From positions 1 to 24,386 of the IMG/VR virus record IMGVR_UViG_3300025133_009651: a DNA stretch of 24,386 bases; one strand, given 5' to 3'. Positions 3 through 23,178 of this stretch are shown in pieces. Each line of letters starts with the position of its first letter. Positions within the stretch are counted from its first letter, which is position 1. The notes under the pieces were generated by a model. It saw only the letters and a list, made by a program, of their open reading frames with translations, did no database searches and was not told where the DNA came from. The DNA comes from a virus. Both the position numbers and the translations under genes were made by a program.

Positions 3-929
3 TCATCTCAAAGTTTCCTCAAAAACTTGATCCCATTTATTCAGATATTCATCTATATGAAAATACTTAACTGCAGTCTCTCTTCCTGCACATCCAAGGT
101 CTTTTTGCATTTGCTTTGATTCCAATATTTTCTTAACGGATTTTAACATATCTTCTTTTGTATCCGCAAAAAGACAAGTTTTGTTATCCTCAAGATATCT
201 GTCTATACCAAAATTCTTTGTTGTAACAATCGGCGTTCCACACATAAGCGCCTCCGCTCTAGTTCTTGGCATTGCGCTTCTTGTTGTCGTGTTTAAGAAG
301 ACGCTATATTTATTATAGGTTCTGGCAAGCTTTGAAAGAGGGTAACACCCTATAGACTCTTTTCTGCTGTCATTTCCGTGTCCAAGCAAATCACATTTTC
401 CTAACTTTTCAGAGACCCATACCCACTCATCAAAGCCTAGAACCTTTTTTCTTTTCTTAAAAAGACTTGCTGCGCTAAGAACTCTCTGGTTTCTATTCAA
501 GTTTAAAAAATCAAACTCTCTCGGATCAAAACCATGCGGAATATAAAAGTGCTTTTGTTTTGGAAAATCCTTTCTATATTTATCCATTACAACCTTTGAG
601 TTCCACACGACACTCTTTGTCCAAGTTGGAATTTTGTATGGCAAATATGTTTGCATAACGGCAACTCCAGGAGTATTTGCCCTTGCTCTAAAATGTCTAT
701 ATCTAGCCGGATTTAATCCTGCTCGAACCATTATAATATTAAATGTTTTTTGTGCAGCACTTTTTTCATAAATATACTTTACATTTTTATTTTTTGGCCT
801 TCCCAGCTCCTTTGGATCTGGAGGGCGGCCTCCTAAGCCTGTGCAAAAAAAATGATGACCCGTCTTAAAAAACTCATATTGATGCCCTCCATGTACTAGC
901 CAGTCCATTATTCTTAGCTTCTTAGCCAT
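3..929 (-). CDS. Short GT-B-type glycosyltransferase, divergent active-site signature
   Basis: A 308-residue protein, shorter than the usual 350-400 residues of the family. It keeps the acceptor-domain start (MDWLVHGGHQYEFFKTGHHF, Gly-Gly-x-x-Tyr-Glu), a linker segment VVWNSKVVMDKY…FYIPHGFDPREF and the donor-domain end PRTRAEALMCGTPIVTT…DRYL. In the E-x7-E signature the second Glu is E226, but the first position is Ser218, so the catalytic pair is incomplete. It could be an altered enzyme or a partner subunit of another glycosyltransferase. Start: TAATG overlap with the upstream gene and AAAGGA 8 nt before the ATG. The stop is at 3-5, so the protein is complete, but the operon may continue beyond the left edge. 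It is soluble, with no membrane segment. Confidence 0.8.
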   Translation of the reverse strand: MAKKLRIMDWLVHGGHQYEFFKTGHHFFCTGLGGRPPDPKELGRPKNKNVKYIYEKSAAQKTFNIIMVRAGLNPARYRHFRARANTPGVAVMQTYLPYKIPTWTKSVVWNSKVVMDKYRKDFPKQKHFYIPHGFDPREFDFLNLNRNQRVLSAASLFKKRKKVLGFDEWVWVSEKLGKCDLLGHGNDSRKESIGCYPLSKLARTYNKYSVFLNTTTRSAMPRTRAEALMCGTPIVTTKNFGIDRYLEDNKTCLFADTKEDMLKSVKKILESKQMQKDLGCAGRETAVKYFHIDEYLNKWDQVFEETLR

Positions 930-2053
930 TATAAAAATCCTTTAAATCTTTTTTGAGATAATATTTGTTCAATTTTTTCAGAGCAAGAAGATATATTCAT
1001 AGATGCTGCTAAAGATTTAGCATTTTTTGTTTTATATAAATATTCTTTGTTATTTATGTAAACATCTCTCATTAATACGCTAAGATGAGCAGATTTTGGT
1101 TGGGCCCACTTTTGATATGACTGATACCATCCGCTCCAATCCATATTTTTTACTCGAATCATATTATGATCTATAATAAAAGCATTATCATCATTTAACA
1201 ACTCTGTTATGCCTCCAAACTTAGTCGTTATAATGTGACTATCGCATAACATAGCATCGTGAATCGGCATCCCCCAGCCTTCTCCATGATGAGGCAAAAC
1301 AAAGGCATCACACATCTTGTGTAGCCCAAATAAAACTTCTTTTTTTAAATTATCCGTTATTAAATAAACCTTTGGTAAATCCTTTTTATTTATCATTCTC
1401 TTTATTTTTAATATATCGTTTTTTATTTTTGAAACTCCATGTCCCGAACACTTTAATGGATTTACTTTTAATATTAAGACCACATTATCATTTGCATCAA
1501 ACTCTTTATAATATGCCCTCAATAAAGCATTATAGCCTTTTCTCTCATTCCATTGAAATACAGAATAAAATTTAAAAGTTTTATCCGATAGAACCAAAGC
1601 ATCTGTCACAGGAGATGGAATATCAACTTTTGAATAAATTACGTCTGTATTGCAAGGAGTGTGCAAAATCTCTATAGGCCCCTTAAATCCGGCCCTTAGG
1701 CATGCAGATTTGACAAGCTGACACGGTGCCCAAATCTCGTTTAGGCTGCGACAAATATCTCTTTCCCAAAGCTTTGGCAAGCAATCCGCTTCCCAATAAA
1801 AATATCCAATTTTATAATTTCTAGTTTTATGCCTACTAAAGGGCGGAGTATGCAAATAAAAGTCAATCTTTGGATTCCCAGAAAAGTTATTTAATTCTTC
1901 TTTAAAAAATCTTATACTTTTATTAGATTCAAATCTGGTTTGAACATTTGATCGAGAAAACGCCAAAGCAATATTAGTCACAGCATTTCCATAACCCCCA
2001 AACCTCTTTGGTTGCCCAAAAAATCTTATAGATGGCAAGCTCCTTTGCATCAT
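929..2053 (-). CDS. GT4/GT-B-type glycosyltransferase
   Basis: A 374-residue soluble GT-B glycosyltransferase. The N-terminal glycine loop (GQPKRFGGYGNAVTNIALAF) is typical of the GT4 acceptor domain. YFYWEADCLPKLWE…LNEIWAPCQLVKSAC parallels the YESSIMPKVW…LPSSNFSK segment of the first enzyme of the cassette, so these two are probably related paralogues. FQWNERKGYNALLRAY supplies the donor-site Arg/Lys. The signature is E258-GWGMPIH-D266, with Asp for the second Glu, a conservative change. Two Met codons start it (2053 and 2050); the first overlaps the upstream stop in ATGA. Its TAA shares one base with the next ATG (TAATG). Acceptor and donor are unknown. Confidence 0.87.
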   Translation of the reverse strand: MMQRSLPSIRFFGQPKRFGGYGNAVTNIALAFSRSNVQTRFESNKSIRFFKEELNNFSGNPKIDFYLHTPPFSRHKTRNYKIGYFYWEADCLPKLWERDICRSLNEIWAPCQLVKSACLRAGFKGPIEILHTPCNTDVIYSKVDIPSPVTDALVLSDKTFKFYSVFQWNERKGYNALLRAYYKEFDANDNVVLILKVNPLKCSGHGVSKIKNDILKIKRMINKKDLPKVYLITDNLKKEVLFGLHKMCDAFVLPHHGEGWGMPIHDAMLCDSHIITTKFGGITELLNDDNAFIIDHNMIRVKNMDWSGWYQSYQKWAQPKSAHLSVLMRDVYINNKEYLYKTKNAKSLAASMNISSCSEKIEQILSQKRFKGFL

Positions 2054-3582
2054 ATGTACTCGCCAAAAATAACCTTGGAGTCTCTGCTTTTCTCACGAAA
2101 GGTTAGTGCGCTGCTGAGTATATTCATAAAAAACTTATTAGATATAGCTTTTATATTATGATTCTTTATTATATACTCTCTTAAGTTTTGATGATAATTT
2201 TGCTGATCTATTTGGCTCTTTATAAGCTTTCTGTCTGACTTTAAAGAACCGCTTAATATATTAAAATTATCTAAATGTCCAAAGTTGCTCTTTATTTGGC
2301 CAACATCCGTTGAGTAAATCGGAAGACAACAAGACATTGCCTCAATTATTGAAATTGGAGTTCCTTCCATCTTTGATGTTAACAAAAATGCATCAAAAAT
2401 ATTATAATATTCTTGGATATTCTTCTTATATCCCAAAAATGATACATTATCAATATTATTATCTTGAGCAAATTTTTGCAACCCCGGCCCAAGAGGCCCA
2501 GATCCAGCAATTACCAGATGAATATCCGATAAATCTTTAACAAGCCTTAGCGCATACTCTATATTCTTCTCCGGAGAAAGTCTTGCCACCATTCCAAACA
2601 CAGTTTTGTCTTTTGGAACGTTTAAATCTCGCCTCAATGATTTGTCTTCCTTTCTAATGAAAAGATCTGTGTCAATGCCCACCGGCATTAATATTTTATT
2701 AAAACTTGAAACACCAGATATATCATCTGCTAAATTTTCGCTTACTTTAAATATAAAATCAACATTTGATCTTGATCTTAAGTGAGCAACGGCATCCTGC
2801 CAAAGAAAGTCGCTATGATATATCTCAATAATCTTTGATCTTATCTTTTTCTCATCCTTTAGACTAGATATAAGATTATACACATTTCTGCTGTTATAAA
2901 AGAGGATTATATCATGCTTATTTGAAGACAATACCGTAGATAACATTGACATATTTCTAATATACCTATGGTTTATGCTTGGATTCGATATTTCAAATTC
3001 TAATTTATTTTTTGATAAATATAAAAAATCTATATTAAAAGCATCTCTTTTTTCTTCAAAAATGCTCTTAAGATATACCTCCCCACCTCCATATATTCCA
3101 TATGGAATAATGACAGCAATCTTTTTCTTGTGGGTAATGTTTGTTATATTTTTCAAATAATTGTCTAAAATTTCTGATGTAATCTCCTCTGCCCTTGGCC
3201 TTTTTGTCGGAAGCTCCTCCAAGATTCCATCCTCTAATACAATTCTGGCTATTTCAATCCTTCCGAATGATCTTTTGGACCTGGCAAACTCAAGAACTCC
3301 ATTTATAACCTCTTTATTGCAGCTAACGGACTGCTCTGACCATGAACTTTTCGTAAAACTCATATCTGTTGAAAAAAGAATTTCTCCGCTTCTATTTTTT
3401 AAAGATAAGTTTAAATGGCCATTTCCGGAAATCTTTTTTCCAACAATCTTAATATTCACACCATTAATCTTTGGAATATTTGCTGACAAACTTGACTTTG
3501 CACTCATTATAAAGTTTTTCTCTACAAAGCTAACCCCATATGATTGCCATTTATTCTTTTTGTGTGAATCCAATATATTCAT
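2050..3582 (-). CDS. GT4 glycosyltransferase with extra N-terminal beta domain
   Basis: A 510-residue enzyme. Residues ~150-505 are a full GT4 glycosyltransferase: KKIAVIIPYGIYGGGEVYL with the Gly-Gly-x-Glu acceptor-loop motif, GMVARLSPEKNIEYALRL with the Arg and Lys that contact donor phosphates, VIAGSGPLGPGL, and the signature E406-GTPISII-E414 followed by AMSCCLPIYSTDVGQI. Residues 1-~130 form a separate beta-looking domain (GNGHLNLSLKNRSGEILFST…) not needed for catalysis, possibly a substrate-recognition or carbohydrate-binding module; I do not recognise its family. It overlaps both neighbours by 4 nt (ATGA). GGA lies 7 nt upstream of the start. It is soluble and cytoplasmic. Confidence 0.88.
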   Translation of the reverse strand: MNILDSHKKNKWQSYGVSFVEKNFIMSAKSSLSANIPKINGVNIKIVGKKISGNGHLNLSLKNRSGEILFSTDMSFTKSSWSEQSVSCNKEVINGVLEFARSKRSFGRIEIARIVLEDGILEELPTKRPRAEEITSEILDNYLKNITNITHKKKIAVIIPYGIYGGGEVYLKSIFEEKRDAFNIDFLYLSKNKLEFEISNPSINHRYIRNMSMLSTVLSSNKHDIILFYNSRNVYNLISSLKDEKKIRSKIIEIYHSDFLWQDAVAHLRSRSNVDFIFKVSENLADDISGVSSFNKILMPVGIDTDLFIRKEDKSLRRDLNVPKDKTVFGMVARLSPEKNIEYALRLVKDLSDIHLVIAGSGPLGPGLQKFAQDNNIDNVSFLGYKKNIQEYYNIFDAFLLTSKMEGTPISIIEAMSCCLPIYSTDVGQIKSNFGHLDNFNILSGSLKSDRKLIKSQIDQQNYHQNLREYIIKNHNIKAISNKFFMNILSSALTFREKSRDSKVIFGEYI

Positions 3583-4664
3583 GATATATCCAATATTTGC
3601 TTAGCTGCGCTTTTCCATGTAAACATTTTTACTGTCTTTTTAGATTCTTTTTCAAATTGCTTTTTAATTTTATTATAATTTTCATAAGCTTTTATCATAT
3701 TTTCCGATAATGAATCAATATGTGGCAGATAAGTCTTTGCTCCCGGAGAGGGCCTCCAATACTGATATTTATCAGATGCCTCTATTTCCTTCACATCAAC
3801 AAGCAAAGAATTATTGTCATTTAAAAAATCCAACTGACCCGTACACCTTGGGGCTATCACCACCATACCCGCAGCAAGTCCCTCTAAAAATGGCAGCCCA
3901 AATCCTTCTGCGGAAGATGCGCTCACCAAGCAATCGCAACTATTATATAGAGGGATCATGCTTGGATATTTGTGCTGAATAACCTCTACCTGAGGAAGCA
4001 TTCTTCCTTTGTGTTTTTTCTGGGCCTTTAGAATCTCCTTCACCACATCGCACTCAAATCTGTGCTTTGGTTTATCTAGTTTTATTTTCAAAACAAGACA
4101 TACGTCATCTCTATCGGTAAATGCCGAATAGTATGCGTCAACAAGAAGATTTATGTTTTTTCTATAATGAGGTATGGAAACATTTAAAAATTTAAACTTT
4201 TTCTTTGTTTTAAAGTTGTTTACTTTGGACTTATCTCTAAAGTCCTTTGGATTGATACCATGAGGCACGACAATACATTTCTCTTCTGGCCAACCCGAGT
4301 TGACAAAGACCTCTTTTGAAAAATTGCTTGATGGCAAAACATAATCAACATGCCTAATTTGATCAACCCAAACCTTTGGCATGATGCTTGATTCATAATT
4401 ATAAATTGCCAACTTTATCTTTGAATTTCTGTTGAACCTAAGCTTAAAATTTCTCGGAAGAGTATATGTTAAATCTATATCTGCATCGCCACATTCTCTA
4501 CAAAACTTTTTCCATTCATTTGGAAATAAGTCATAATCATTTATAGAACTCAAATATAAATCATGATTCATTAATCGGAATTCTTTAAGCAAGCTCCTGA
4601 CCGTAACGGCCCAGCTATGAGTCGTTCCAAGCATTGCCTGCGATCTGATTTTTAGTTTGCCCAT
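3579..4664 (-). CDS. GT4/GT-B-type glycosyltransferase (first of cassette)
   Basis: A 361-residue soluble glycosyltransferase of GT-B fold that transfers a sugar from an activated donor, most likely a sugar nucleotide. The C-terminal donor domain has the E-x7-E signature E253-GFGLPFL-E261 followed by GLAAGMVVIAP, as in GT4 enzymes. The acceptor half has YESSIMPKVW and the linker LPSSNFSKEVF…IVVPHGINPKDF, a common pattern in phage and capsule glycosyltransferases. Length is normal. There is no signal peptide or membrane segment, so it acts in the cytoplasm. It starts 88 nt after the tail protein gene, without a visible Shine-Dalgarno; its stop overlaps the next start (ATGA), so the two are translationally coupled. 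Donor and acceptor cannot be read from sequence. Position suggests a virion-linked substrate, but host-surface glycan is possible. Confidence 0.88.
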   Translation of the reverse strand: MGKLKIRSQAMLGTTHSWAVTVRSLLKEFRLMNHDLYLSSINDYDLFPNEWKKFCRECGDADIDLTYTLPRNFKLRFNRNSKIKLAIYNYESSIMPKVWVDQIRHVDYVLPSSNFSKEVFVNSGWPEEKCIVVPHGINPKDFRDKSKVNNFKTKKKFKFLNVSIPHYRKNINLLVDAYYSAFTDRDDVCLVLKIKLDKPKHRFECDVVKEILKAQKKHKGRMLPQVEVIQHKYPSMIPLYNSCDCLVSASSAEGFGLPFLEGLAAGMVVIAPRCTGQLDFLNDNNSLLVDVKEIEASDKYQYWRPSPGAKTYLPHIDSLSENMIKAYENYNKIKKQFEKESKKTVKMFTWKSAAKQILDIS

Positions 4665-4752
4665 GGTACAAGATTATACTTCAATGAAGTCAAATTCCTT
4701 GGTGTTTAAGCAGCCTCCGCGTCTATCGGATAGACTACATACGTTTCATTAT
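4665..4752 (-). promoter_or_regulatory. Intergenic region before the glycosyltransferase cassette, with two dyads and a -10-like box
   Basis: The longest non-coding gap in the window (88 nt). It holds a 7-1-7 dyad at 4721-4735 (GTCTATCGGATAGAC), a 6-1-6 dyad at 4678-4690 (ACTTCAATGAAGT) and, abutting the latter, a minus-strand TATAAT at 4673-4678. The hexamer is only 8 nt before the ATG at 4662-4664, and no ribosome site precedes that ATG, so a transcript from it would be nearly leaderless. A TTGACT lies only 9 nt before TATAAT, too close to be a normal -35 box; an activator-dependent promoter with the dyad in place of a -35 is possible. There is no T-tract to make either dyad a standard terminator. 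Whether the cassette has its own promoter or is read through from the tail genes is undecided. Confidence 0.35.
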
Positions 4753-7700
4753 TTAGGGCAAGTGGAAGAAGCATGGGAATGGACCATCAACAAAGGTTCC
4801 TGTTGCTGTGCTGCCGGCAACGAAGAAGCATATATCATCATCTTCAAAATCTGTTTCGTCAATACACGTTCCGATTCCAATACGAGCCAAATCCTTGATT
4901 CCTATGGTTACATCGCCATTTATAAATCCAGACTTTTTAAGATGAACACCAAACTTCAATACCGTTCTGTTTGCTGCATTCAAAACATCATATAAGATGT
5001 TCTTAGTCTGCAGCGCTACTATTCCCGTGCTCGAATCAAGGCTTGCCCCAACTTTAAAAATAACTCCCGTAGTTATGTCTTCATATGCTATACTAAATGA
5101 CATACTCGGAGATATGACCATTTCTGCCACAGCTGTTGAGCTTGGCTCAACGACCAAAGCTTTGTAATAACCTGGAAGATGACCGGTTTGCGAAAGATAA
5201 TATAGAGCCAAACTGGTTATGTCAACCGAAAAGGCTCCCCCTGCTGCAACATCTCCTGGGCTGAAGGTTGTTATAAACGAAGTATCTTTTTCTATAGGAT
5301 AATCAATTAATACGCCTAAGTTATCAGCGTTTAATATATCATAAGGCATAACATTGAAGCTTTCTGTCGTTGAGATAGCATCTACTGCAGTCATCTCTAA
5401 TGTTGCAGATACAATATTGGTTTTTTGCGTTAATAAGAACGGGAATGTTGCCGTAATCATGTTTATAACACTACTTGAATCTCTGCTTATTTCTACAGAA
5501 GCACTAGAGGCGGAAGAGCTAGACGAAAAACTATGCCTAAGAACCATCTCGTATAAAGAAGCAGCATAAATAATTCCAACATTTGGATTATCATATTGAG
5601 CAATTTCAACATTTATTTTAGCATCACCAGATCCTGGCTGAGTACCGGCAACTGTTCCTATCTTAACATATTGTCCAGTTGGATTGCTTGAAACATCTAA
5701 TAGAGTATTGTCAAAATACATTCCAAAAACAGCTTCGTTTGTCCTTCTGAATCTAAACATTATTTCATCGCCAAGATCATCTTTTGCCTTGACCGAATGA
5801 TCAAAATCGCTTATAACAGTGGAAGTTGATATGGTTTCTATAATTCCGCTAAAGAATAGCTCTATATCTTCATACGCATTTTGTCTCCATCCCAATTTGA
5901 TGGTAGCCTTTGTGTCGTCAAGATTAGTTATTACCAATGTTGAAAAGAAGGCAACTTGTCCAAACTTTAAATCATCTTTGTCCCAAGTTGTTCTGGCTGC
6001 GGTAAAGTCAATGACAAAATCATCTGATATATCTGATATGGTTGCCGTTGGATACTCTAATCTCGCATATCTTTCGCTTGCGTTAATAGTCTCAAGCGCG
6101 AAGAATGCTGGCTCATTGGATCCAGACACTGCAGTGATTGTAGCATAGCCGCCAGCAGGTTCATCTGTGGTCCACTGAGAGAACCCAAGGACACTTGGGT
6201 ATGAATGGTCCGTAAAAGCCTCAGAAACGACCTCTGAGGACGTCATAAGCGATGTCTCGTCTGCATATCCGTCTGTAGCATATCCGTCCACCAAAGCATC
6301 GACATGGAGGCTTGCTATGCATTGACTTATCTTTACCCGGCCCTTGGTTATATCCGTATTTCCGCCCGAATCTTCGCACCCAACATATGTTCCATCGGAA
6401 TACTTCATGGCGGGATATCCCGATGCTGTTTTGCAGGTTGTAGAATGGGCTTTTATAAAGTTTGTATATAAATCAATTTGACAATCATCTATTGATCCGG
6501 GAGGCAAAGGAATAGTTATTGTTGCATATTCTATATCGCCATGATATGGAACTCCGGGCTCTTTATAGATCTCTCCCTTCGGAATGAATAGATCGTTTGC
6601 CAAAACCTTTTGATTCTTATACTGAGGAGTACAATCTTCTTCTTCAATACAGGTCTCTTCTTTGCAAACGCATTTTTCTTCAAACTCTTCTATAAAGTTT
6701 GTTTCGACATATCTTCTTAAATCACATGAATCGATAAACATCTCTTTGTGAGATGCTCCGATATATGATATTGACCAATTTTTTGCTACAAACGGAACAT
6801 TTAGAAGATTTATATTATCCGCATAGGTATTTACTTTTGTTCCGCTTACTATAACAAGGTCAAATGCGCTAGATCCAAGGAAAGTAATTGCTGCACCATC
6901 AGAATCCGTAACAGCGACAGATACTCCCGTTCCAGTTTCATCAACCGTCTTAGAATATATAATATATTCGCCAGTATCACTCTCTCCGGATGGAACTGTG
7001 ATCTTATCCCCAACTCTTATTGCCAGAGCTTGAGTGTCCGAAGCCGTTGTAAAGCTTATGTCGTCTCCTCCGCTGACAGTATTCCCTGTCGCAGCAGAGC
7101 TTGCCGAGTCAGAAGAATCAAATAAAGTTGGATAATCATCTTTCTCCAGAACATTTTCTAATTTTAAAGTTAATACCTTAAAGTTCTCGCTTACGGTAAA
7201 GTTTACGTATCCATCGACCGCGTCTTCTATAAGCTCTATGTCAAAACCATCTACGGTTCCGTCCTCATTTAGATCTGCCTTTGTAAAGTCTAATAGGCTA
7301 AGTTCGCCTCCAAGGATTTTTCTTTCCGTAGTTTCTGCTGTAATTGTATTTCCAACTACATTCACCAGCTCAATGATATCATTAGATGTTATCTCTTTGT
7401 CATCATCAAAGTCTGCAGCATATACAACCTTACACTCTGCTCCTATAATTCTATATCTTGAATTACATTCACAATCTGTATCTGGAGTTATAATTCTGTT
7501 TATAAGATTTTCAGACAATAGCTCCGAGCTTGGATTGATAAAAACAATTTCGTCGGAACCTATAATTCCCGGCTTGCTAAAAGATCCGGTTATATCTTGA
7601 GCATCTCTTACGTTATTATCTCTAACGCGAGCTAATAAAATCGGAGGATTATCCTCATCTACCTTGGCAAGCTCAGCGGTTGTCATTATAGATACAGACG

Positions 7701-9324
7701 GAGCATCTTGTATTCTTGTATTGACAAAATTGCCAGTTCTTGGATGTATACCTGGAGCCCCAAACTCATCTTTGCGCTGCAAGACTACATAGTTATCCGT
7801 TCCCTCGGATACATTGCTCAAGGATATATTTCTCAAGAAATGAGAGATTAACGTGCTGCCCACATATTCTTCTGTTTTTGGCAGAATAACCGGATAGCCA
7901 TCATCCGTATATGCTATTCCGTCCGCAACCTCTACGGCATCTGAATGAACAACAAACCAAAGAGAAGAGTCATAATCGTCAACATATACGAGATTGTTTG
8001 GATCAAATTCAAAAAATCTTGTTGTTTGCTTGCCAAACTTTTCAATTACGTTTAAACTTTGTCCATTATCTGTTTTTCTTTCGGACTTTGTAAAGCCCTT
8101 CTGCATAATAACAGTTCCGGTTCTATTATCACCCCGCCTGCTTACAAGAAATGCATAATATTCATCCGCATTTATAGAGGGTTCAATGTTTGGATCAGCT
8201 ATTAATGTTCCGGAAAAATCAAAGCTGACAATCTGCGGAGCCCCATCAAACTTGTATCCCAAAACCTCAAGGTCTTCTTGAGAATAAGACATTTCAATGA
8301 TAGGAGAAGGATCTGGATCAAAGTCTATTAAATTATCCGGATGAGGATCTGTTACACACTGAATATCTGTTGATAAAGTGTGTAGAGAGATAACTATATC
8401 GCCGGAAAAATCATATTCAGAACCAATCGCTGCCGCTTCATCTTTTTCAACAGAAAATAATAAATCAATTTTCTGTATATTATCTGTTTTAGCTAAGAAT
8501 TTTTGACCATAAGCCGTTGTTTGATCTCCATCCTTACTAAACTTTATTTCGCTTTGCGCTTCTAGCTCAAAATATAAATCATTAAAATTATATACAGATC
8601 CTAGACCGCTCTTTATTTCATCTTCGATTGTTTTATCTGTTCCAGATGTTATAAAGTTTGCAAGACCTACGTTTGGAGACTCGATCTGATAAACAGAGCT
8701 GGTTCTTGGAAATACAAGAAAAGGCTCCGATTCTCTTATTAAGAATTTTCCGCTGCTGTCTAGCGTATTTTCGCTTTTTACGCTTAACTCATTGTGAGTT
8801 CTTCCTGTTCCTCCGGAAAAATTGTTGAAGAATATAGATACAACCTTGATATAGTAATTCTCTGTAATATTTGTTTCATTTTTATTAAACTCAACAATCT
8901 CCGCAACAATCTCACCAGCTTCGCTTAAGCTGCTGTAAGCCGCGCCAATAATCAGCACTTTTGCGGATACTCTTCCCCCAAGATCTAGGCCTGAAGCCTC
9001 TATTTCTAGTCTATTTCCATAAACAGTATCGCTTGGCTGTCTGTCTAAATAGATCGCCTTACCATCGTATGTCCCCGAATTGATAGCAAATTCTGATGCA
9101 TTCTCTTCGCCAGCAGCAGTATGTACTCCTGGATTGCTTGTGTCCAAGAGAACTCTGCTTTCAAAGAGTCTATCTCTAACAACTCCGCTCCCATGGAAAT
9201 CACCCGTAGAGTCGGAGATAAGGCCTCTATAGTGAATCTGTTCACTATCAAGATCGGCCTCTGTTATTCTTTGTCCGTCAAAAAAGTTTGCTCTTGGAAA
9301 CCTTTCTCTGTTAGCCTTTGCCAT
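4753..9324 (-). CDS. Large tail fibre/appendage protein with baseplate-docking N-terminus and dockerin-like pair
   Basis: A 1523-residue beta-rich protein. Residues 11-50 read ANFFDGQRITEADLDSEQ…DFHGSGVVRD, matching a pattern I associate with baseplate-attached proteins of contractile phages and injection systems (FDGQxLTxxDf…eQxY…HGxGvV), so this end probably docks on the baseplate. Two 12-residue calcium loops follow at D638-D649 (DFDDDKEITSND) and D684-D695 (DLNEDGTVDGFD), each followed by a short helix as in dockerins. Cys pairs flank them (C618, C620, C631 and C885, C887, C892, C898). Residues ~745-825 form a small beta module (VGDKITV…GEYII), ~1012-1022 a DGYA cassette, and ~1300-1450 a Ser-rich start and a beta sandwich of the kind found in carbohydrate-binding or DNRLRE-like domains. 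Start 9324 has AGGAG 7 nt upstream. Likely a surface-exposed receptor-binding or enzyme/partner-docking appendage. The glycosyltransferase cassette begins 88 nt after its stop. Confidence 0.75.
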   Translation of the reverse strand: MAKANRERFPRANFFDGQRITEADLDSEQIHYRGLISDSTGDFHGSGVVRDRLFESRVLLDTSNPGVHTAAGEENASEFAINSGTYDGKAIYLDRQPSDTVYGNRLEIEASGLDLGGRVSAKVLIIGAAYSSLSEAGEIVAEIVEFNKNETNITENYYIKVVSIFFNNFSGGTGRTHNELSVKSENTLDSSGKFLIRESEPFLVFPRTSSVYQIESPNVGLANFITSGTDKTIEDEIKSGLGSVYNFNDLYFELEAQSEIKFSKDGDQTTAYGQKFLAKTDNIQKIDLLFSVEKDEAAAIGSEYDFSGDIVISLHTLSTDIQCVTDPHPDNLIDFDPDPSPIIEMSYSQEDLEVLGYKFDGAPQIVSFDFSGTLIADPNIEPSINADEYYAFLVSRRGDNRTGTVIMQKGFTKSERKTDNGQSLNVIEKFGKQTTRFFEFDPNNLVYVDDYDSSLWFVVHSDAVEVADGIAYTDDGYPVILPKTEEYVGSTLISHFLRNISLSNVSEGTDNYVVLQRKDEFGAPGIHPRTGNFVNTRIQDAPSVSIMTTAELAKVDEDNPPILLARVRDNNVRDAQDITGSFSKPGIIGSDEIVFINPSSELLSENLINRIITPDTDCECNSRYRIIGAECKVVYAADFDDDKEITSNDIIELVNVVGNTITAETTERKILGGELSLLDFTKADLNEDGTVDGFDIELIEDAVDGYVNFTVSENFKVLTLKLENVLEKDDYPTLFDSSDSASSAATGNTVSGGDDISFTTASDTQALAIRVGDKITVPSGESDTGEYIIYSKTVDETGTGVSVAVTDSDGAAITFLGSSAFDLVIVSGTKVNTYADNINLLNVPFVAKNWSISYIGASHKEMFIDSCDLRRYVETNFIEEFEEKCVCKEETCIEEEDCTPQYKNQKVLANDLFIPKGEIYKEPGVPYHGDIEYATITIPLPPGSIDDCQIDLYTNFIKAHSTTCKTASGYPAMKYSDGTYVGCEDSGGNTDITKGRVKISQCIASLHVDALVDGYATDGYADETSLMTSSEVVSEAFTDHSYPSVLGFSQWTTDEPAGGYATITAVSGSNEPAFFALETINASERYARLEYPTATISDISDDFVIDFTAARTTWDKDDLKFGQVAFFSTLVITNLDDTKATIKLGWRQNAYEDIELFFSGIIETISTSTVISDFDHSVKAKDDLGDEIMFRFRRTNEAVFGMYFDNTLLDVSSNPTGQYVKIGTVAGTQPGSGDAKINVEIAQYDNPNVGIIYAASLYEMVLRHSFSSSSSASSASVEISRDSSSVINMITATFPFLLTQKTNIVSATLEMTAVDAISTTESFNVMPYDILNADNLGVLIDYPIEKDTSFITTFSPGDVAAGGAFSVDITSLALYYLSQTGHLPGYYKALVVEPSSTAVAEMVISPSMSFSIAYEDITTGVIFKVGASLDSSTGIVALQTKNILYDVLNAANRTVLKFGVHLKKSGFINGDVTIGIKDLARIGIGTCIDETDFEDDDICFFVAGSTATGTFVDGPFPCFFHLP
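6259..6291 (-). repeat. Third DGYA-type cassette
   Basis: Encodes DGYATDGYADETS near residues 1012-1024 of the 1523-residue tail protein. Two GACGGATATGC cores lie 15 nt apart. The protein-level pattern is shared with the cassettes at 12752-12812 and 11424-11456 in the giant tail gene. Confidence 0.75.
7240..7413 (-). other. Dockerin-like pair of calcium-binding loops
   Basis: Both loops have acidic residues at positions 1, 3, 5 and 12 (D638, D640, D642, D649; D684, N686, D688, D695) and a hydrophobic residue at position 8. Asp rather than Glu at position 12 is typical of dockerins rather than classical EF-hands. The loop starts are 46 residues apart, longer than in typical type I dockerins. 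Calcium binding is likely; cohesin binding is unproven. Confidence 0.65.
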
Positions 9325-9381: not shown

Positions 9382-10602
9382 TTAACATGGATCACGTGGA
9401 AACTTTACTAATGCATTTGTGTGTGCTGGCTTTAGCCTATTTACCAAGTCAACAATCAGGTCTTCAACTTCATCACTGTCTATCTTACCGAAACCATCTT
9501 CTACATCTATATCAAAATTAAATATGCCACTTTTTGGGTCAATAACCGTTGTGTAAAAATCTTCACCACTCTCCTGTTCGAAATCTAGTAACAATGTCGT
9601 TGCATCATCCTTTACTACTGGCATAATAGTAGCTATATTTGAAGAATAATTTGGATCAATATATTCTCCGGAAGGATCCTTCGATGCGTTTCTCATTATT
9701 CTGCTAAATCTTATATTGTCTAACCTGGACAAAGCTGATTGGCTTTCGAAAACATCCGAGCCGATGCAAACCAGCCTGAAGTCATCTTTTAGCTTAATAT
9801 TATAGTTAACCTGCTTGGACGCACCCGATTCGCTTGTCGTTTGGCCATAGACAAATCCTGTTCCGTAAACGGCCCCGTGTTGACCATATAAAATGTATCC
9901 GGATTCGGTTCCGTCAACAAATAATCTCATGGTATCGGAAGCTGAGTTTGTTTTCCATGTACACATTATTCTGTGCCAAGTATTTCTGCTCCAATCTATA
10001 TCCTTCGACAAGATATTGGTTACTCCATTTGCCTTTATAGAAAAGACAATTTGGCTTCTGCTGTTCTTATAAACCGAAACTCTATCTCCTGCGGAGTCAA
10101 TTGGAATATAAGAAACTATAACATCTACTCTTGCGCCAGGAAGGGCATCCTCTAGGTAAACTCGCTTTCCATCTGCGCTAAGTCTGCTTTCAGACGAAAA
10201 GTCCTTTATAACACCGGTTCCGCCGGTCAATCTTCCGGTTATCTGACTCCTGTAAACTTCATCAAACAGGATCTGGTCGGCTTCATCTTGTGTGTAAAAG
10301 CCCGAAAACTCCTTGGTTTGCTCCATAAGCTGTATGCTTACAATTTCTTTTGCCGAAGTTGGAAGATCTATTATCGTGGGCGAAAACGATTTAATTCTCT
10401 TTTTAACAACAGAATAAACATCAACATAATATCTATCTTTTTCATCACCAATCGTATCCATCAGTGGGCTTACCCAAAACTCTATAGATCCCTCTGACTT
10501 TCTGAAGTGTGAAAGCCTATTGTTTATAACCAACGGCGATGTATTGAAGAACCTTGTTGACAAACCGAAATTATCATTAACACTGTTGTGGCTTACAAGC
10601 AT
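9382..10602 (-). CDS. LamG-like (concanavalin-fold) tail protein
   Basis: A protein of about 406 residues from the preferred start; in-frame ATGs at 10617 and 10647 would lengthen it to 416 or 421 residues, with 14 or 44 nt overlap with the giant gene. The LamG pattern is clear: GSIEFWVSP near the start, then an inserted beta segment of roughly 100 residues, then NTWHRIMCTWKTN…MRLFVDG, then LDNIRFSRIMRNAS and a final DDATTLLLDFE strand. The same end motif (IDEFRI…TLLLSHFDD) closes the giant upstream protein, so the two C-termini look paralogous. LamG folds in phage tails commonly bind carbohydrate, hence an inferred role in adsorption or in decorating the baseplate/fibre. It ends in …KFPRDPC with a lone terminal Cys. 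The next gene starts 57 nt downstream with a strong ribosome site. There is no signal peptide or membrane segment. Confidence 0.72.
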   Translation of the reverse strand: MLVSHNSVNDNFGLSTRFFNTSPLVINNRLSHFRKSEGSIEFWVSPLMDTIGDEKDRYYVDVYSVVKKRIKSFSPTIIDLPTSAKEIVSIQLMEQTKEFSGFYTQDEADQILFDEVYRSQITGRLTGGTGVIKDFSSESRLSADGKRVYLEDALPGARVDVIVSYIPIDSAGDRVSVYKNSRSQIVFSIKANGVTNILSKDIDWSRNTWHRIMCTWKTNSASDTMRLFVDGTESGYILYGQHGAVYGTGFVYGQTTSESGASKQVNYNIKLKDDFRLVCIGSDVFESQSALSRLDNIRFSRIMRNASKDPSGEYIDPNYSSNIATIMPVVKDDATTLLLDFEQESGEDFYTTVIDPKSGIFNFDIDVEDGFGKIDSDEVEDLIVDLVNRLKPAHTNALVKFPRDPC

Positions 10603-10603
10603 T

Positions 10604-13600
10604 TTATCGCTTCTCATAAGTTTTTGACTCGTTAAAGAGTGGGCCATTATATGCGTGGTGACACTCTATGTAAGTCTCAACTGCCGAATCTTTATCAAAT
10701 CCCATGCGGACCATTGAAGACACAAACATATCTTCATTATTAATGTAATTTAGCAATTTCTCTCTATCTTCAAACTCTAATTTAAATTTAAAATTATTTT
10801 CGGTATTTAAGAATTCTTTTTGCCTTAACCTTCTTGCCTGAAGAGCTATTGGGTCATCAAAATGGCTTAAAAGAAGAGTTTGATCATCTGGACAATGTGG
10901 ATTGGGATTTAAATAATCCTCTGTAATGCTTCTTGTTCCATCGGTATCGTTTTCGGTTGGACGCGTATCGCTTGACATTTCCGTTATAATTCTGAACTCG
11001 TCTATTGTTCCGCCAAATTGGCTCTTTTTATTTATATCGCAACCTATATAAGCCTTATCGCCAACCATTGGAAGGCTTACATTTAAAAATGCAGGATACT
11101 CAAGATGATAACTTCCGGGATGTAGCTCAAAGGGATAATATCCATTTGATCCAAATACTGTTAAAATGAATCTTCCATTCGTGTATCTAAATACTTCTGC
11201 ATATTCGCCATTATTGTCCGATACAGTTATAGGATTGGACTCAACAAGCTCAATGACGCAAGGCTCATAATTTGAATCTGCCAAATATAGCGTTCCAACG
11301 ATCTTTGTTACAGACTTGAACAGTTTTTCCCCTCGAATCTCTCCATTTCCTCGAACGAAAAATTCTTCCTTATCTGTCCCGTCTACAGTTTTTCCATGTA
11401 CAACGATCTTATTTTCAGATGTATTGTCTGCATACTCATCAATATATCCATCTACCTTCTCACAGAAAGCTGTATTGTCTGAGTCGAAGTTTATAGAAAG
11501 ATATCTTCCCATATTCTTCTTGTAAACCTGACCCACCTCTGACGTTACAAGGTGCTCTCCATTCTTGCTTAATAGTCCTATCTCAAAGGTAGACTCATAA
11601 AGACTTCCATCTTTTGTTGACGTGTCAATGCTTGGAATAGTTCTAGGAAGAATGATTCTTCTTATATAGACATCATCAAGAGATACGGGCTCAACAGAGT
11701 GTGACATAATCACGCTATTTCCGCTATTTATATCGTATTCTTTTTTATCCAGATGATAGTAAGAAGAGCTTGATAAATTAATTATTCCTTTGCAATTTTT
11801 ATAAATCAAACCAAAGGTTTTAATATGAATATCTAGGTCTGAAAATTGAACCGTACTATTATAGTTGCACTCCGCATCTTGACCAACAAACTCTATGACT
11901 CTTGTGTCCAGATTAACTCGAAATTGTGGGTTTATTATTTTTGCCCCACTCACAATGTTTACCACACCGCTATCGACCGTATATGTAATTCCTCCAAGCT
12001 CTTTTTCAACTCCTGCGCAATCCGTTTTTGAAATTATAAAAGAACTATTTCTAAGATCTGTTGCTACATCCCTTTTTATTCCCGCTGTTGGCGGAAACAT
12101 AAACTTAATATCGGATGCTGATGCATCAAAACTTACTATGTCTAAGTCTAAGTTTCGAACAAATGTTACGCTATTGCCATTTACGCTATTTATAATATAT
12201 TCTTTTCCTACATAGGTTGGCGCAACGCTAGACTCTAAGATGATTATAGATCTGCCTACCATATCTTGCGCAAAATTAGCGCTACTTGAACTAAAAGTAG
12301 AGGTTCCAGCCAAAGTTGTACCATCTGTAAATATGCTGCAATAATCTATGCCATCTACAAGAAAGTCTTGCAGAACTTCTTTGCTAATATCTGAAAATTT
12401 ATCATTAATTCTTATAGGAACGGGGCCGCCAAACTTATAGATATTTGGAGCCTCAAGTCCATCTATAAATAAATGCATTTCATCCTTCTCATAAAGGGTA
12501 TTTAGCCTCCAGCTTGCCGCTACATGATGAAGCTCTCCAGGTTTAAAGCTTTTTATATTCGTTGCTATATTGTACATGTTGACATCGCCGCTCTTTGATA
12601 GCGAATTATCAAAAACTCTAAAATTCATAAAGCCTTTGCCGTCTTTAAATATTGATATTCTATTTTCCGACTCTCGCTGCCCGCTATCAAAGATATATCT
12701 TAGCTTATCTGATGTAAAATAAAGCTCATCAACATCGAACTCTTGCACTGAAGCGTAACCATATCCATAACCATCTGAAGACGTATCTGCATAACCATCT
12801 GCATAGCCATCTTCTCCAATTACCGAAAATCCAAACTCTATTTTTGAATCTGTGCTAATGAAGAAGTCTCCAGCCTCAAGGGTTGTAACTCCATCCTCGT
12901 ATCTTGCGCTATACTCTATAAGGCCCAGGTCAAGAACATTTCCATCTAATTCGCTATGGAAATCTACCGCGCTTGACAATGATCCATCGAATAAATGTAT
13001 TGCAAAAAATGGCTCGCTAAGTAATTCGCAAGCTTGAGACGTATTTGCCGAAAAGTCATCAACATCGAGCTTGCTCAGAATCTGAGAATTAGACTTAACC
13101 GTTATGATCCCTGTCTTGCTATTTTTGTTTAATGTAAGCTGATTGAACAAACCGTTATCCCAATCAAAATATGATATATCGACTATTTCACTTGAGTTGC
13201 CGTCTACAACCAAGACCAATGGCTGCCCCAGATCGCTTATGGCCAAAGCAACTTTTACATTTATATCGTTATCATAAATGTGTATTGGAGTTATTCCGGT
13301 TATGATTCCAGATATAGCCCCTTCAAACTCGCCAACCGAAGAGGCCGAAAGTCTAAAGTCTACCTCTGCGACCCTAAAGCTAACCGTTGCAGAATAATTT
13401 CCTCCATAACAAGGCAGGCTTGTATATGCGAAGCTTCCATCTGCTATATTATGATTGCAATCATCTACGCTTGCAACAGATGGTCCCATTCTATAAACAC
13501 CACCGCTTGAAGTCGTGGCGAAAGCCCCATGCTTCATCCAGGCTGAAGCCTCTCCTTCTGCTCCTCCTATCAATATATTGATGAGTTCCGAAGATGTTTC

Positions 13601-16600
13601 TCCGATCTTTTTCCACCCATCTCCTTCTCCCTCACCCTCTAAGACTCCATCTCCACAATATCTGTACTCCGAGGCACAAACCAATCCCGTTGGGCACCCT
13701 GATCCGTCCTCTTCTCTGTGCGCTCTTACGACCGAAGAAAACTCTCCGTCTGTTGTTATTACTCCGGCAAATATATGGCTCATTGGAACATATGAATATA
13801 CAAGATCATAAGGCAAAGCCGAACTACCAACGGCTGCGGCTACTCCCGTTGGCATATAAACAGACTCGCTGGCTCTCGTTCTAAGAACCCACTGTCCAAC
13901 GTCATCTGCTAACGGAGATAGACATAATTCGTCAAACCCTATAAAAACTCCTTCCGCAGAATCTGCATTATATGGTAACCCAACCGACGTATCTGGAAAA
14001 TCACTCTTGTTAACCTCAAAGGGAATCCTTCTTGGATTTCTGGCGCTTGCACCTATATAAATATCTGCCTCATCAAACCTATTATGTATAGAATACTTTA
14101 GACTATTGATATCTATAACAGATTTGCTGGTTCTATCAAGTGTTCCTACTGCGATTTTATCAGATAGGCTACTTGAGTTATCTACAGATACAATGCCTCC
14201 TGCTATATTGAACCATTTATCAAGATTTAGACTACTGTAAATTACAGCTTCCGCCTCAACATCAATAAGGTCTGTATAAAATAAATCTATATTCTTCTTT
14301 TCCGAAGTAATGGAACTAGTAATTACAACCTTAACATTGTTTTTCATCGGATCTCTCACGAAGGAGAGGTCTACATAATCTGACATCCAATCAACTATGT
14401 AGCTTTTTGCTTCATATCCTAAATATGTTGCTGCATCAGGACTCGTCTTAGTAAGTATAGATAAAGTTTGATAAAGAACTGTTATTTCGCCAGTTGGAAG
14501 CAAGCTATTTATAGCATCCGCTCCTTGGGCCGTTATATATTGCTGATTTTCCGGAATCCTGTTTACTACAAAGCCAGATACTGTATCTGGGATAGAGTCT
14601 AAGACTAACTCTTGGTCTTCATCCAAAAATGCATATACTTCATAAACCGCTCCACGAGTATCTAAAACTCTAAAAGCAGACGGCTGATCATCGAATGGCA
14701 CATCGGTATCGCCTATATAGCTAAAATCTATATTAAAATCTAACTCAATTCTAATTGACTGAAAATCCTTATCTCTGAATTTTGATAATTCAGCCAGCGT
14801 ATCATCAACTGCACATTTACAATTTCTTGTGATATGCAGTCTGTTATAATCTGGAATTTCATTATGTTCTATATGTTCATCGCCAACTCTAAACGTATAT
14901 ATTTTTCCACTATCCGGATTGATTAGCGGCCTCATTGAAAACATAGAAAATAGAAGCTTTTCTTTATCTCCTATGGAAATAAAAGCTGGACTGCAGAATC
15001 TATACAGCGTGTCTTCGCTACCTTCCGCTATAAGACCTCTAGATGCATCTGACAGAGATCTTCCAAGCCCAAGGATGCCCAGGTTCACTATATTAAACGC
15101 AAGGTCCTCTGACGCCCTTCTCCTTGGCGGATTTATATCATTAGGAGCAGAAAAGCTAGATACCTTTAACGAAATATCAAGTTCTGTTTTTACAACCCTA
15201 GAGATAGAAGCCTCTTCTTTCACAAGGGCAAAAGCTCCAATCAGCTCTTCCTCTTCGCCTCCAGCTATATCATCGACCCAAGAGCTAGTATAGTTGTGAA
15301 TAGTTACGCTTGGCGCTGAGCTGTCTACGCCGCCAACCGCATCCTCTGACGATAAAACGTTAAATCCATTTTTATAATCAAAGATATTGTCTCCAAGTTT
15401 ATATGCATAATGCTTGAGTCCAATATTGTCTATATGTATTGTTAAAGTTGCATCATTATCAATGCCGGCCCACTCTGGACAAACCCATGCAGAAATCGTG
15501 CCCTCATCCAGATTTATATTTGAGATAGCAGGAACAGAGACGACCGTATCGTCCTTTATCATTATTCCTTCTTCAAATTTACAGGGTTTAAACTCAATAG
15601 TTCCGTCTATCTTTATTTCTTGTGGATTAAGATACTCTCTGCCCAAGATCCAGTTTCCAAAAACAGATTCTGTAATTCCTGGAGTTATATCTGTGAAAGA
15701 TTCAACCAAAGATCTGAAAGCAGGGATGGTCGGGCCCTTTGTAAATGCCTGTACCGTTCCGGCTAAGGCGCTTCTGTATAACTCGCGGTCTGTGGTCAGG
15801 GGAAATCTTTGGAAAAATGGTATTTTCGTCAAAACACCAAAGTTTTTCCTTAAAGCATCTCTTAGTGCTCCATACTTGTATGTAGCATAATAAGTTTCTC
15901 CCTCATTTATCGCGCTTCCTACCGACCAATCTATTTGGTTATCCCCATATTCGTATGAAACGTAAACATCATCATATGAATATACATAACTCAAATAAAG
16001 TCGTCCCGCCCTATAATCAACGCCAACCTTAGTTCCGACTTCTGGAACAAAAGTTGTCTTATAAATTACATTTACAGGATCTCCCTTGTTCACATATGAA
16101 TCAGACGGAATGGTTATTGTAACACCCGAGCTAGAGGTTACAACTGTTGATTTTACAATTACTTGGGCGCTTCCTAGTGCCGGGGAGCTTGCGCTAACAT
16201 TGTTTTCTGCCGGAACAGAAACCACTATTTTTGACAATGCAGCATCAAAACTAACAATTGTAAAGCGATTATCATCACTATCTAATAAAAAGTCTCCGCT
16301 TGTATCAATGCTATCCAAAATTATGCCAGACTTAATATCTGCAGAAATATTTGCACCCGAAGCTTCCGTATTAACTATCTCTAAACCATCTATTTTTAGA
16401 ACATTAAGCTTTTCATCAAAAATCTCAGAATCGGTTGGTGTATGAATTATTTTATAAACTTCATCAAACGATGAATCATTAATTACAATTTCATAATTGC
16501 TTCCACTCTCTGCAAGCCTGGTGCTATGCGTCTTTTTTAAGTCTATTATGTTGTCTTCAAATGACATAAATATAGGATTAAAGATATTTCCGCCGCCACC

Positions 16601-19326: not shown

Positions 19327-22300
19327 CTAATTGATTCTAAACTTATTTCTCGATATTGCTTCAAAAATAACAGAACCAGGTGATATTGTTTGATTATCCA
19401 ATGCTTTTATAAATGCTTTTCTACCTGTCTTGTCAGACTCATTAAACATGGAAATATTAACTGAGTCGACACCGCTTTCTCCTGCAGCAACTGCAATTAT
19501 ATCAGAATAATCAACAATAGCTCCAAGTCTTGATGTATTTAGCAAATTAGTAACAGAATTTATTACATTTTCAACAATTTTATCAGCCTCACTTAAAGCA
19601 TCATCATTAATCAACAGCGTTCCATCTACGTCTACAGTTAATTCTTCGGCTTCTTTTACAAGGATATCAGCAGTGATTGGCCTAACTCTTTCTGCTTCAA
19701 CTGTAGTATCTACAATAAGCCTATTAACGTTATAGGCTACCGTAATTCTCTCTCCCTCTTTTGGTGCCAAAAAGTCATAATCCACGTAATAAGCTTGGCC
19801 ATTTTCCGGCTGATTTAAAGGCTTAATATCAACGCTGCCTACCAAGTTTCCTGCGGTAGATCTAAATCCAGATGACACAGACACCCTGCTTATTCTTCCA
19901 AATCTTGCATTTGTTGTTCTTGCTCCTGATGAAGCAAAATATAACTCTTCGTATCCTTCTGAGTTGTATATCAGAATTTCTATTCTAAGCTTATCCCCAG
20001 AACTAATAGACATAGCGTTATTGACCGGAACTGACGGAAGCGTAAATTGATAATTTTCTAAATCTAAATCTGCTTGGGCGGCTCCTATATCATAGTCTGT
20101 ATTCTTTAAATAATACCCCAAAATACTAAATTCTTTATCTACTTTATCATTCTTGTCTAACGTGCAAACTTTATCAACTCTTGCAATTCCGACATTTGTT
20201 GGAATAGAGGCTAAATCAAGGGCCTCTTTCAGTTCTGATTCTATGTCAAAAGCAAGGCCTGTCATGGTGACTCCCGCTACAACATCTAATGTATACCTAT
20301 CAATAGTTGTTCCTGAGACCTTTATCTTTCCGGCGCTTGATGCTCCAGATATTCCAACTTGTAATTTTGTTGGTCCAAATCTAACTATTGAACTAGGCTC
20401 TCCTGCTGAATTGAATTCAAAAAATACTGGCTGATTATTCGTTGATGTGCTCGTGGTTTCTGGTCCAATCAAGGAATTGGTTGTTGTGCCGCCTATAATG
20501 GGCAAACCATCCAAAGTAACCTGCGAGTATACAGAGATTATGTTTGCAACATATGTAACATAAGCGTAATCTCCGGATAAATACAGGTCTTCAACTATAT
20601 CTAAAAGCTCTTCTGCTTCCAAAACACTTTCTGATGGCAGAGTTATCTTGTCATTATAGTTGGAGCCATCTGTTTTGTTTATATCAAATAATTCTGTTTT
20701 GTTATAATGAACAGTAACGTCATCTCCAATAGAGCCAACAGCGTCTGAGGGAAGGTAAATAATTCTTGCGTCAAAAGATCCATCTGCTGCAGGTGTACTA
20801 TAAAGCTCAAGGTTATCGCTTGTTCTTTTAACAGATATAATATTTACGATAACATCTTCAGCGGCGTCAAGCTCTATCCCAACAATGCTTGTTGCGCCCA
20901 CCGTGCTAACAACAGATAATGTTGATGTTGTTTCAACTTTGTTATAAACAGATACAACCTTGTTAATTTCAAAATCTGTTTCTATTTCAAAAACCAATCC
21001 ATCATCTGTTTTTGTGATTATTGCTGCTTCTTCGAAGATTCCTCCGCTAGACGTCCAATCTATAGAGTCTGTTGCCGAAGGATCTCTAAATTGAGAAAAG
21101 CTTTTTGACCCACCATAGTCGACATAAGAGTCATATTCTTGTCTCCATGTATAATTGGTATTCAAAACATCTGCAGCAGTTGGAAGAGATCGTCCTGTTA
21201 TTTGAACAATCCCGCTAGTGTTTAGTCCATCTGAGTCTAAATTTTGATCAACAACAGAATATATCTCGCCTGTTGTCTTGTTTTGAACCTTGCTAACCCT
21301 AACAACTGGTGTGTGCAGCAATTTAATATATTCTTTGCCCGCAGAACTTACTTCTGAATTTTCTCCAATTTCATTAATATCCCTATACACTCCGGTCACA
21401 TCGTTTATATCTGTAAAAGTGAGGGCATCTACGCTAAATGATTCACCCTTTGTAATGCTTTCTCCATTTACAATCTTGGTGTTGGAAATAAAATGAATTT
21501 TATCAAAACCAAATGGACTCCCTCCCGTTTCTGGATTTAAATCTTTTTGTAATTCAAAGCTTCCAGAAACAATTCCATCGCCATCTGTAAATGACTCTGT
21601 TAAAATGCCCGAAGAGCTGCCAACAACGGATATCATGGAGTCTACTGGCTGTGCCGGTATAGAGCCAGTTGAAAAGGCCAAAACTCTTCTCTCTTCTGAC
21701 GTTCTCGTTTGATCTTGCCCTACCTGCCCCAGTGTGTGGTCATTTCTTTCGTCTGAAATATTGCCTGCTCCAGATAGATCTGTAAAGATAAAGGATTCTG
21801 AGACAGCCTCAATGCTTCTTCCTAAAATATATATGTCAACCTTTCCGCCTGTTCCTGAGCTTATTATTCTACTGGAACCATCGTCAAGCTCTATCGTTTC
21901 TGTTCCGTCTCTAAGCATCAAAGAGTTACCCGGTTCAACAACTAGGGCATCTGTAACTCCGCTTACTCCCAAAACAGCATTTCTATACCCAGCAGAAGTG
22001 CCTACGTTGGCTCCGCTAAATACCGAGAGAATTCTTGTTCTAAAGGAATTGTCCGTCTCCCTGTTTGCCCCGCCAGTCATAGCGGTCAAGTTTATAACAG
22101 AAACTGCAAATGGCAAATCCGTTTCTATAATTTGAAGAGTCTCCCTGTTTGCCCCGCCGGTCATAGCGGTCAGGTTTATAACAGAAACTGCAAATGGCAA
22201 ATCCGTTTCTATAATTTGAAGAGATCCTACATTTCCCGTAGTTCCTGTTCGTGTTGCTTGCGCCGGAATCTCTATTGCATATGTGCTGCTTATGCCTGCT

Positions 22301-22737: not shown

Positions 22738-22744
22738 CACCCAT

Positions 22745-22748
22745 CCCT
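22745..22748 (-). promoter_or_regulatory. Ribosome-binding site that decides the J-like start
   Basis: AGGG overlaps the stop codon of the upstream gene. It stands 7 nt before ATG 22735-22737 but only 4 nt before the GTG at 22738-22740, so the ATG is the better start. Confidence 0.5.
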
Positions 22749-23178
22749 ATACTATCCTTACTGTAATAATATCTTTTACTACCGTAAGCTCTTTTGTCAA
22801 CACAGAAATAAAAATATTATAAAGCCTTGGATCTACATTGTCTCTTGCAACCGAAATACTTGATATATCTATAATAATTTCACCTGGAGTTAAAGCTTGT
22901 CTTCTTGACTGCGCCCGCTGAAGAGACATTAAGTTTCTAACCGCATTTCTTGCCGAAGACTCTAAATCTAAAGATACCAATCTTTCGTCTGCCTGATGGC
23001 CGATTTGTAACGCACCTATGTGGCTTCCATATTTTGGATGATACTTGTTGCCTCCAAGGTCTGTTAACAATATTTTTATAATATCCTGTCGTAATTTTGA
23101 ATTACCAGCAACTACCCTTACAGTCCCATCGGTTTCTATTTTTATATCCCCTCTTACTAGGGCTAAATCAAAAGACAT
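22747..23178 (-). CDS. gp25/W-like baseplate wedge protein
   Basis: A 143-residue protein of the GPW/gp25 family, the small wedge component that helps connect the tail sheath/hub to the baseplate in contractile tails. The length is typical for the family (about 100-150). Visible family features are an N-terminal beta segment (residues 1-25), then the core LRQDIIKILLTDLGG followed by Pro-x-Tyr-Gly-Ser (HPKYGS) around residues 29-52, an Arg-rich helix (RNAVRNLM…) and a C-terminal beta hairpin. The start at 23178 is supported by AGGA 9 nt upstream. The stop TAG is followed within a few bases by the J-like gene, and its last bases are part of that gene's ribosome-binding site, so translation is probably coupled. 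The order W then J is that of P2-like baseplate operons, which strengthens the call. Assignment rests on motif and synteny; no search was run. Confidence 0.85.
   Translation of the reverse strand: MSFDLALVRGDIKIETDGTVRVVAGNSKLRQDIIKILLTDLGGNKYHPKYGSHIGALQIGHQADERLVSLDLESSARNAVRNLMSLQRAQSRRQALTPGEIIIDISSISVARDNVDPRLYNIFISVLTKELTVVKDIITVRIV

Follow-up and report, generated by a model that had tools for sequence, protein, structure and literature searches.

In a lineage of jumbo phages (very large phages from aquatic settings), the tail genes anchor a glycan island, and the locus described here is best explained as its left end. For its function, the single most likely reading, to which we give about an even chance from the sequence, is cytoplasmic glycosylation of virion (tail) proteins, following a logic like that of chloroviruses. 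The window, meaning the whole stretch of DNA analyzed (24,386 bases), is an entire IMG/VR contig. The minus strand carries all of the genes covered, which comprise a baseplate set, a giant tail protein, a 1523-aa open reading frame (ORF), and four glycosyltransferases (GTs). Along that strand, the order is a 352-aa ORF, a gp25-like gene, a Baseplate_J/gp6-like gene, the giant tail protein, the 1523-aa gene, and then GT-A through to GT-D. The features are as follows:

3..929, minus strand: GT-D, 308-aa GT4 with Ser218 in place of the first Glu of EX7E (PF13524, 5e-13)
929..2053, minus strand: GT-C, 374-aa GT4 (E258, D266; PF00534, 3e-11)
2050..3582, minus strand: GT-B, 510 aa, GT-B-fold GT4 domain (E406/E414) plus an N-terminal beta domain (PF00534, 8e-28)
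3579..4664, minus strand: GT-A, 361 aa, retaining GT4-type, EX7E (E253/E261; PF00534, 2e-11, alignment, and model/PDB match)
4753..9324, minus strand: 1523-aa tail/baseplate protein, "tailN" (ORF call, domain search, and relatives)
9382..19318, minus strand: ~3,320-aa tail protein, LamG-like domain towards the C-terminus, here as 2904-aa and 421-aa ORFs
19327..22740, minus strand: Baseplate J/gp6-like wedge protein, 1137 aa (PF04865, 3e-24)
22747..23178, minus strand: gp25-like sheath initiator/baseplate protein (domain search)

The 1523-aa gene and the start of GT-A are separated by an 88-nt gap, in which we found neither a terminator nor a convincing promoter, and the GT-A/GT-B, GT-B/GT-C, and GT-C/GT-D junctions overlap by 4, 4, and 1 nt, respectively. 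An earlier sequence-only reading had described four consecutive GT-B-type genes on the strand of the tail genes, and these coordinates and the Pfam matches bear this out. Its count of four GTs and its report of no sugar-nucleotide gene are lower bounds only: the contig terminates two bases beyond GT-D, after the stop codon, so that "four GTs, no sugar genes" is a truncation effect, and relatives continue with genes for sugar-nucleotide synthesis. A nucleotide search of a phage collection with the window gave zero matches.

All four GTs passed the cut-off of Pfam Glycos_transf_1. The EX7E motif is present in GT-A and GT-B, with EX7D in GT-C and SX7E in GT-D, where the position of the first Glu is held by Ser218 in each of the five aligned sequences. 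GT-B also has an extra all-beta N-terminal domain of ~118 aa. Both GT-A and GT-B were modeled with the two-Rossmann GT-B fold, and the predicted structures matched BshA, HepE, WaaG, and 3oy2. The best structural match in the PDB for the GT-A model was chlorovirus NY2A B736L (3oy2), a generic GT4 likeness at ~15% identity; its margin over other GT4 enzymes was small, and we would take it as a lead only. B736L itself is without an assigned function (PMC5408694). Searching viral structures with GT-A returned GTs of a generic kind from phages and giant viruses. A pattern-seeded search of 84,980 cellular genomes, which could miss divergent sequences, found no relatives of GT-A, which thus appears unlike a recently borrowed capsule gene. 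One relative, G025, has a GT-A (L041:16762-19158) with an intein carrying a LAGLIDADG domain inserted in the catalytic region.

The linkage between tail gene and GT was then surveyed in related genomes, as the sequence-only reading had proposed, and proved to be conserved. Baseplate J, GT-A, GT-D, and the tail protein served as queries to gather relatives, which lay on IMG/VR contigs of up to 452 kb. We obtained 25 non-redundant GT-A genes, and the tail gene lay upstream in all 24 cases with upstream DNA, with GT-A on the same strand and one to four ORFs downstream of it (24/24). Reciprocally, where the contig reached far enough past the tail gene, GT-A was present at every such tail locus (35/35, on contigs that are partly redundant). 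Each of 23 genomes had one full-length GT-A, and among the relatives surveyed there were zero cases of GT-A apart from the tail gene. The pairing persists even in genomes that are without GT-B to GT-D and whose tail protein is only 25-31% identical. This linkage is far beyond chance, and an obligate pairing of tail gene and GT-A is apparently new among phage glycan islands. The clade nearest the window gave 15 non-redundant examples of the full order of tail gene, GT-A, GT-B, GT-C, and GT-D, with the window counted among them and an inserted gene in a few. Pairwise identities of the tail protein correlated with those of GT-A (Mantel r 0.93, n 25) and with those of GT-B, GT-C, and GT-D (0.91, 0.85, and 0.71, respectively; n 14), as expected from vertical co-inheritance, so these values show a stable partnership and do not point out the acceptor. 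Because phages conserve the gene order of their late regions in any case, adjacency to the tail gene does not by itself identify the acceptor either.

Relatives also revealed what lies beyond the end of the contig. GT-A to GT-D are not the bare four-enzyme cassette of the earlier reading; they open a large glycan island that supplies its own genes for sugar donors and that, in the clade nearest the window, spans about 16-43 kb (GT-A to TubZ, five bounded islands). At the far end there is a GT4, GT2, GT4 set and then a TubZ-like tubulin, which the terminal GT4 adjoins or is fused to. A second, compact clade has kept GT-A and is without the large island, with ~4-7 kb from GT-A to TubZ in most cases and 19 kb in G033; the member examined in detail, G024, has an epimerase/dehydratase and a Fapy-DNA glycosylase before TubZ. 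As GT-A is kept in both clades and island size is variable, GT-A is the constant part and everything else is cargo that can expand. The fusion of GT4 and TubZ-like tubulin is a single frame of 824 or 831 aa in G011/G012 and G036 (L031:398-2872, minus; L173:1965-4439, minus; L172:16685-19180, plus), while the two are separate overlapping genes in G022, G029, and G031.

Cargo varies by genome. The island of G022 (395 kb) encodes NeuB, two proteins of CMP-sugar synthetase type, KdsA, a KdsD-like SIS protein, an FkbM methyltransferase, a weak GT8 match, GT29, and UDP-glucose dehydrogenase. That of G020 has two GT29 genes, KdsA, a cytidylyltransferase, WbqC, sulfotransferases, an aminotransferase, and a nucleotidyltransferase, and that of G011 has GT2, sulfotransferases, and UDP-glucose dehydrogenase. 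GDP-mannose dehydratase and methyltransferases also belong to the repertoire. Across 97 island ORFs of the clade, we counted 18 Glycos_transf_1 proteins, 8 GDP-mannose dehydratases/epimerases, and 5 UDP-glucose dehydrogenases. CMP-sugar synthetase and GT29 occurred in exactly the same 3 of 17 genomes, with a chance of ~0.0015 for identical sets of three when shared ancestry and fragment length are ignored, which suggests that donor synthesis and transferase were gained as a unit. The proteins of the GT29 "sialyltransferase" family are at L110:16069-16728, L110:17503-18117, and L036:12525-13163, and this family was silent in 14/14 prokaryotic control genomes. A TubZ-bounded, expandable island and the pairing of CMP-sugar synthesis with GT29 are apparently new.

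We then weighed what such an island might modify. A rival reading is that the phage makes or alters the LPS core/O-chain or the capsule of its host during infection, using the host flippase and ligase, which we regard as possible and distinctly the less probable reading; with the same reserve, the purpose would be to exclude rival phages or to mask receptors, which would keep progeny from being caught on debris. The sugar repertoire (NeuB, KdsA, KdsD-like, CTP_transf_3, GMD, UDP-glucose dehydrogenase, WbqC, and sulfotransferases) is indeed like that of LPS and capsule loci, and the conserved ends and variable middle recall O-antigen loci. Comparable islands have been read in this way, namely the 15-gene polysaccharide cluster of jumbo cyanophages (P-SSM2), interpreted as superinfection exclusion (PMC7824862), and the GTs and LPS genes inside the host-recognition island beside the tail fibers of pelagimyophages (SAR11 myophage HRC; PMC7029224). 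However, the bounded islands contain no multi-spanning membrane protein: a hydropathy scan gave at most two candidate segments per ORF of the fetched regions, against six to nine for Escherichia coli Wzx and Wzy-type proteins used as controls. With controls working, the Wzx-type flippase PF01943 was found in 0 of 12 records and the initiating phosphoglycosyltransferase PF02397 in 0 of 17, with Wzy and PF00953 covered through the transmembrane scan only. The islands thus have no flippase, polymerase, or initiating transferase of a Wzx/Wzy-type O-antigen or capsule locus; what they present is soluble GTs linked to structural genes, without export machinery. In the absence of a multi-spanning protein, Wzx flippase, and PF02397, the enzymes are most likely soluble and act in the cytoplasm, where the target is most likely a virion protein, a host-supplied lipid acceptor on the cytoplasmic side, or DNA. 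The unbroken attachment of GT-A to the tail gene and its lack of a detected cellular relative also speak against modification of the host surface.

Glycosylation of modified bases in the phage genome is a very improbable function for these enzymes. Phage GTs that act on hypermodified DNA are known, according to the text of PMC12619734 that cites Pyle et al. 2024, but the thymidylate-synthase/dCMP-hydroxymethylase family PF00303 was found in 0 of 12 records with controls working, which makes a DNA target unlikely. The TET/JBP family PF12851 was found in 0 of 17 records, but there the control was silent too. The GTs adjoin tail genes and not replication genes, and sulfotransferases and Kdo/NeuB genes would be unusual in a DNA modification system. 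We also consider it improbable, if less so, that the locus is the relic of an old insertion site, in which auxiliary genes would insert preferentially at the tail end and the function of the GTs would be an unrelated one (e.g., a secreted glycoside, or decoration of TubZ or the replication apparatus). The variability of the island, its inserted ORFs, and the intein would fit this, as would the fusion of GT4 with TubZ in two independent genomes and their adjacency in three others; against it, no genome seen has given up GT-A, and members of the compact clade hold on to it despite losing other cargo.

Soluble products together with a conserved linkage to the tail gene favor a cytoplasmic acceptor such as a virion protein. 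For virion glycosylation, we propose that GT-A would be expressed in the late tail operon and would add the first sugar(s) to a virion protein, the likeliest being a tail or baseplate protein such as the neighboring 1523-aa product. GT-B, GT-C, and GT-D would then extend a conserved core glycan. Strain-specific island genes beyond the contig end would make the activated sugars, with donors predicted to be CMP-Kdo or another CMP-nonulosonate, GDP-6-deoxyhexose, and UDP-uronate types. Outer residues could be added by further GT4, GT2, GT8, and GT29 enzymes and then sulfated or methylated. Assembly would take place in the cytoplasm on soluble acceptors, as for the chlorovirus capsid protein, and each phage strain would end up with its own surface glycan. 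The sequences themselves establish gene content and order, conservation, linkage, catalytic motifs, and the lack of export genes in the islands; we infer the acceptor, the sugar sequence, and the purpose, which may be shielding, adhesion, or host recognition. Against virion glycosylation stand the Kdo, 6-deoxyhexose, and uronate precursors, which are typical of LPS and capsules, and host flippases and ligases, which could serve a phage-made glycan. More tentatively, and at somewhat less than an even chance, the lineage may practice autonomous phage virion glycosylation, in which a strain-specific tail glycan would be built in the host cytoplasm with CMP-nonulosonate/Kdo synthesis of its own in some members, GT29, and sulfotransferases, and in which the nucleating GT would be the obligate partner of one tail protein. 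The usual reading of glycan islands in phages is that they hold LPS or host-surface genes. A GT seen only together with its tail gene, in an island of soluble donor-synthesis and transferase proteins that lacks an export step, offers a testable alternative, namely that jumbo phages coat their own virions with glycans that they make themselves, that vary among strains, and that are possibly sulfated and sialic-acid- or Kdo-like. If true, this would be a parallel to giant eukaryotic viruses, with consequences for views on recognition, decay, and antigenicity in phages.

Glycan islands of phages are an already known type, of which this system is a variant. Like the islands of cyanophages and pelagimyophages, those of the latter lying beside tail-fiber genes, it is a variable island of large marine myophages that combines GTs with genes for sugar production, and by architecture only (GTs and sugar-donor genes in a variable island) it is an LPS-type island of the cyanophage kind. 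Going by descriptions, it is set apart by the fixed partnership of GT and tail gene, the conserved four-GT core, the TubZ boundary at the far end, CMP-sugar synthesis and GT29 in some members, and an export step in none examined. In chloroviruses PBCV-1/NY2A, the capsid protein is glycosylated in the cytoplasm and most or all of the machinery is virus-encoded (PMC5408694). The likeness lies in viral genes for both donor synthesis, such as GMD, and GTs; the difference is that these are eukaryotic viruses in which the linkage is to the capsid and not to the tail. Distantly similar GTs of Streptomyces phages were set aside as a parallel, as they are not beside tail genes. To our knowledge, virion glycosylation in mycobacteriophages involves few GTs and no sugar-donor island, and the hosts and GT families differ from those of the present lineage. 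Glycans on mycobacteriophage capsid and tail tube subunits are reported in the text of PMC12619734 that cites Freeman et al. 2023. Moraphages are aquatic jumbo phages of 200-307 kb; gp25, gp6, and four putative GT orthogroups without an assigned target belong to their core genome, a four-GT core that we liken to the present one by count and description alone (PMC12619734). A weak parallel is seen in Microcystis phage Mel-JY01, where a GT/FkbM gene lies two ORFs beyond a "structural protein."

Finally, we compared the tail and baseplate proteins. The 1523-aa protein is the best candidate for the acceptor, by linkage only. It has a conserved N-terminal NFFDGQ motif and a pair of dockerin-type Ca-binding repeats at residues ~637-700, which is kept in 15 aligned relatives; no relative of the protein was found in INPHARED. 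Decoration of the tail, as first proposed, gains from the conserved linkage and soluble products and loses its suggested acceptor site. The Ser-rich stretch placed at residues ~1300-1315 lies in fact at 1261-1288 and is missing from the tail proteins of close relatives (G020, G011, and G013) that all share the same GT core. As comparison with relatives revealed no conserved Ser/Thr-rich acceptor in the tail protein, we dropped this stretch. For baseplate J, the nearest match was Bacillus phage G (29% identity over 29% of the query), in which no GT is annotated downstream of the baseplate genes. The ~3,320-aa tail protein is split in the window by a small indel near an A-run (10604-10647) and is intact in the 97% identical L003, so the split is probably a sequencing or assembly error. 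The window also has two near-perfect, two-copy tandem duplications, one of 84 nt in the baseplate J gene (22055-22222), missing from the 97% identical relatives L003 and L004, and one of 93 nt in the 352-aa ORF (23534-23719); these are either recent slippage or an assembly artifact.
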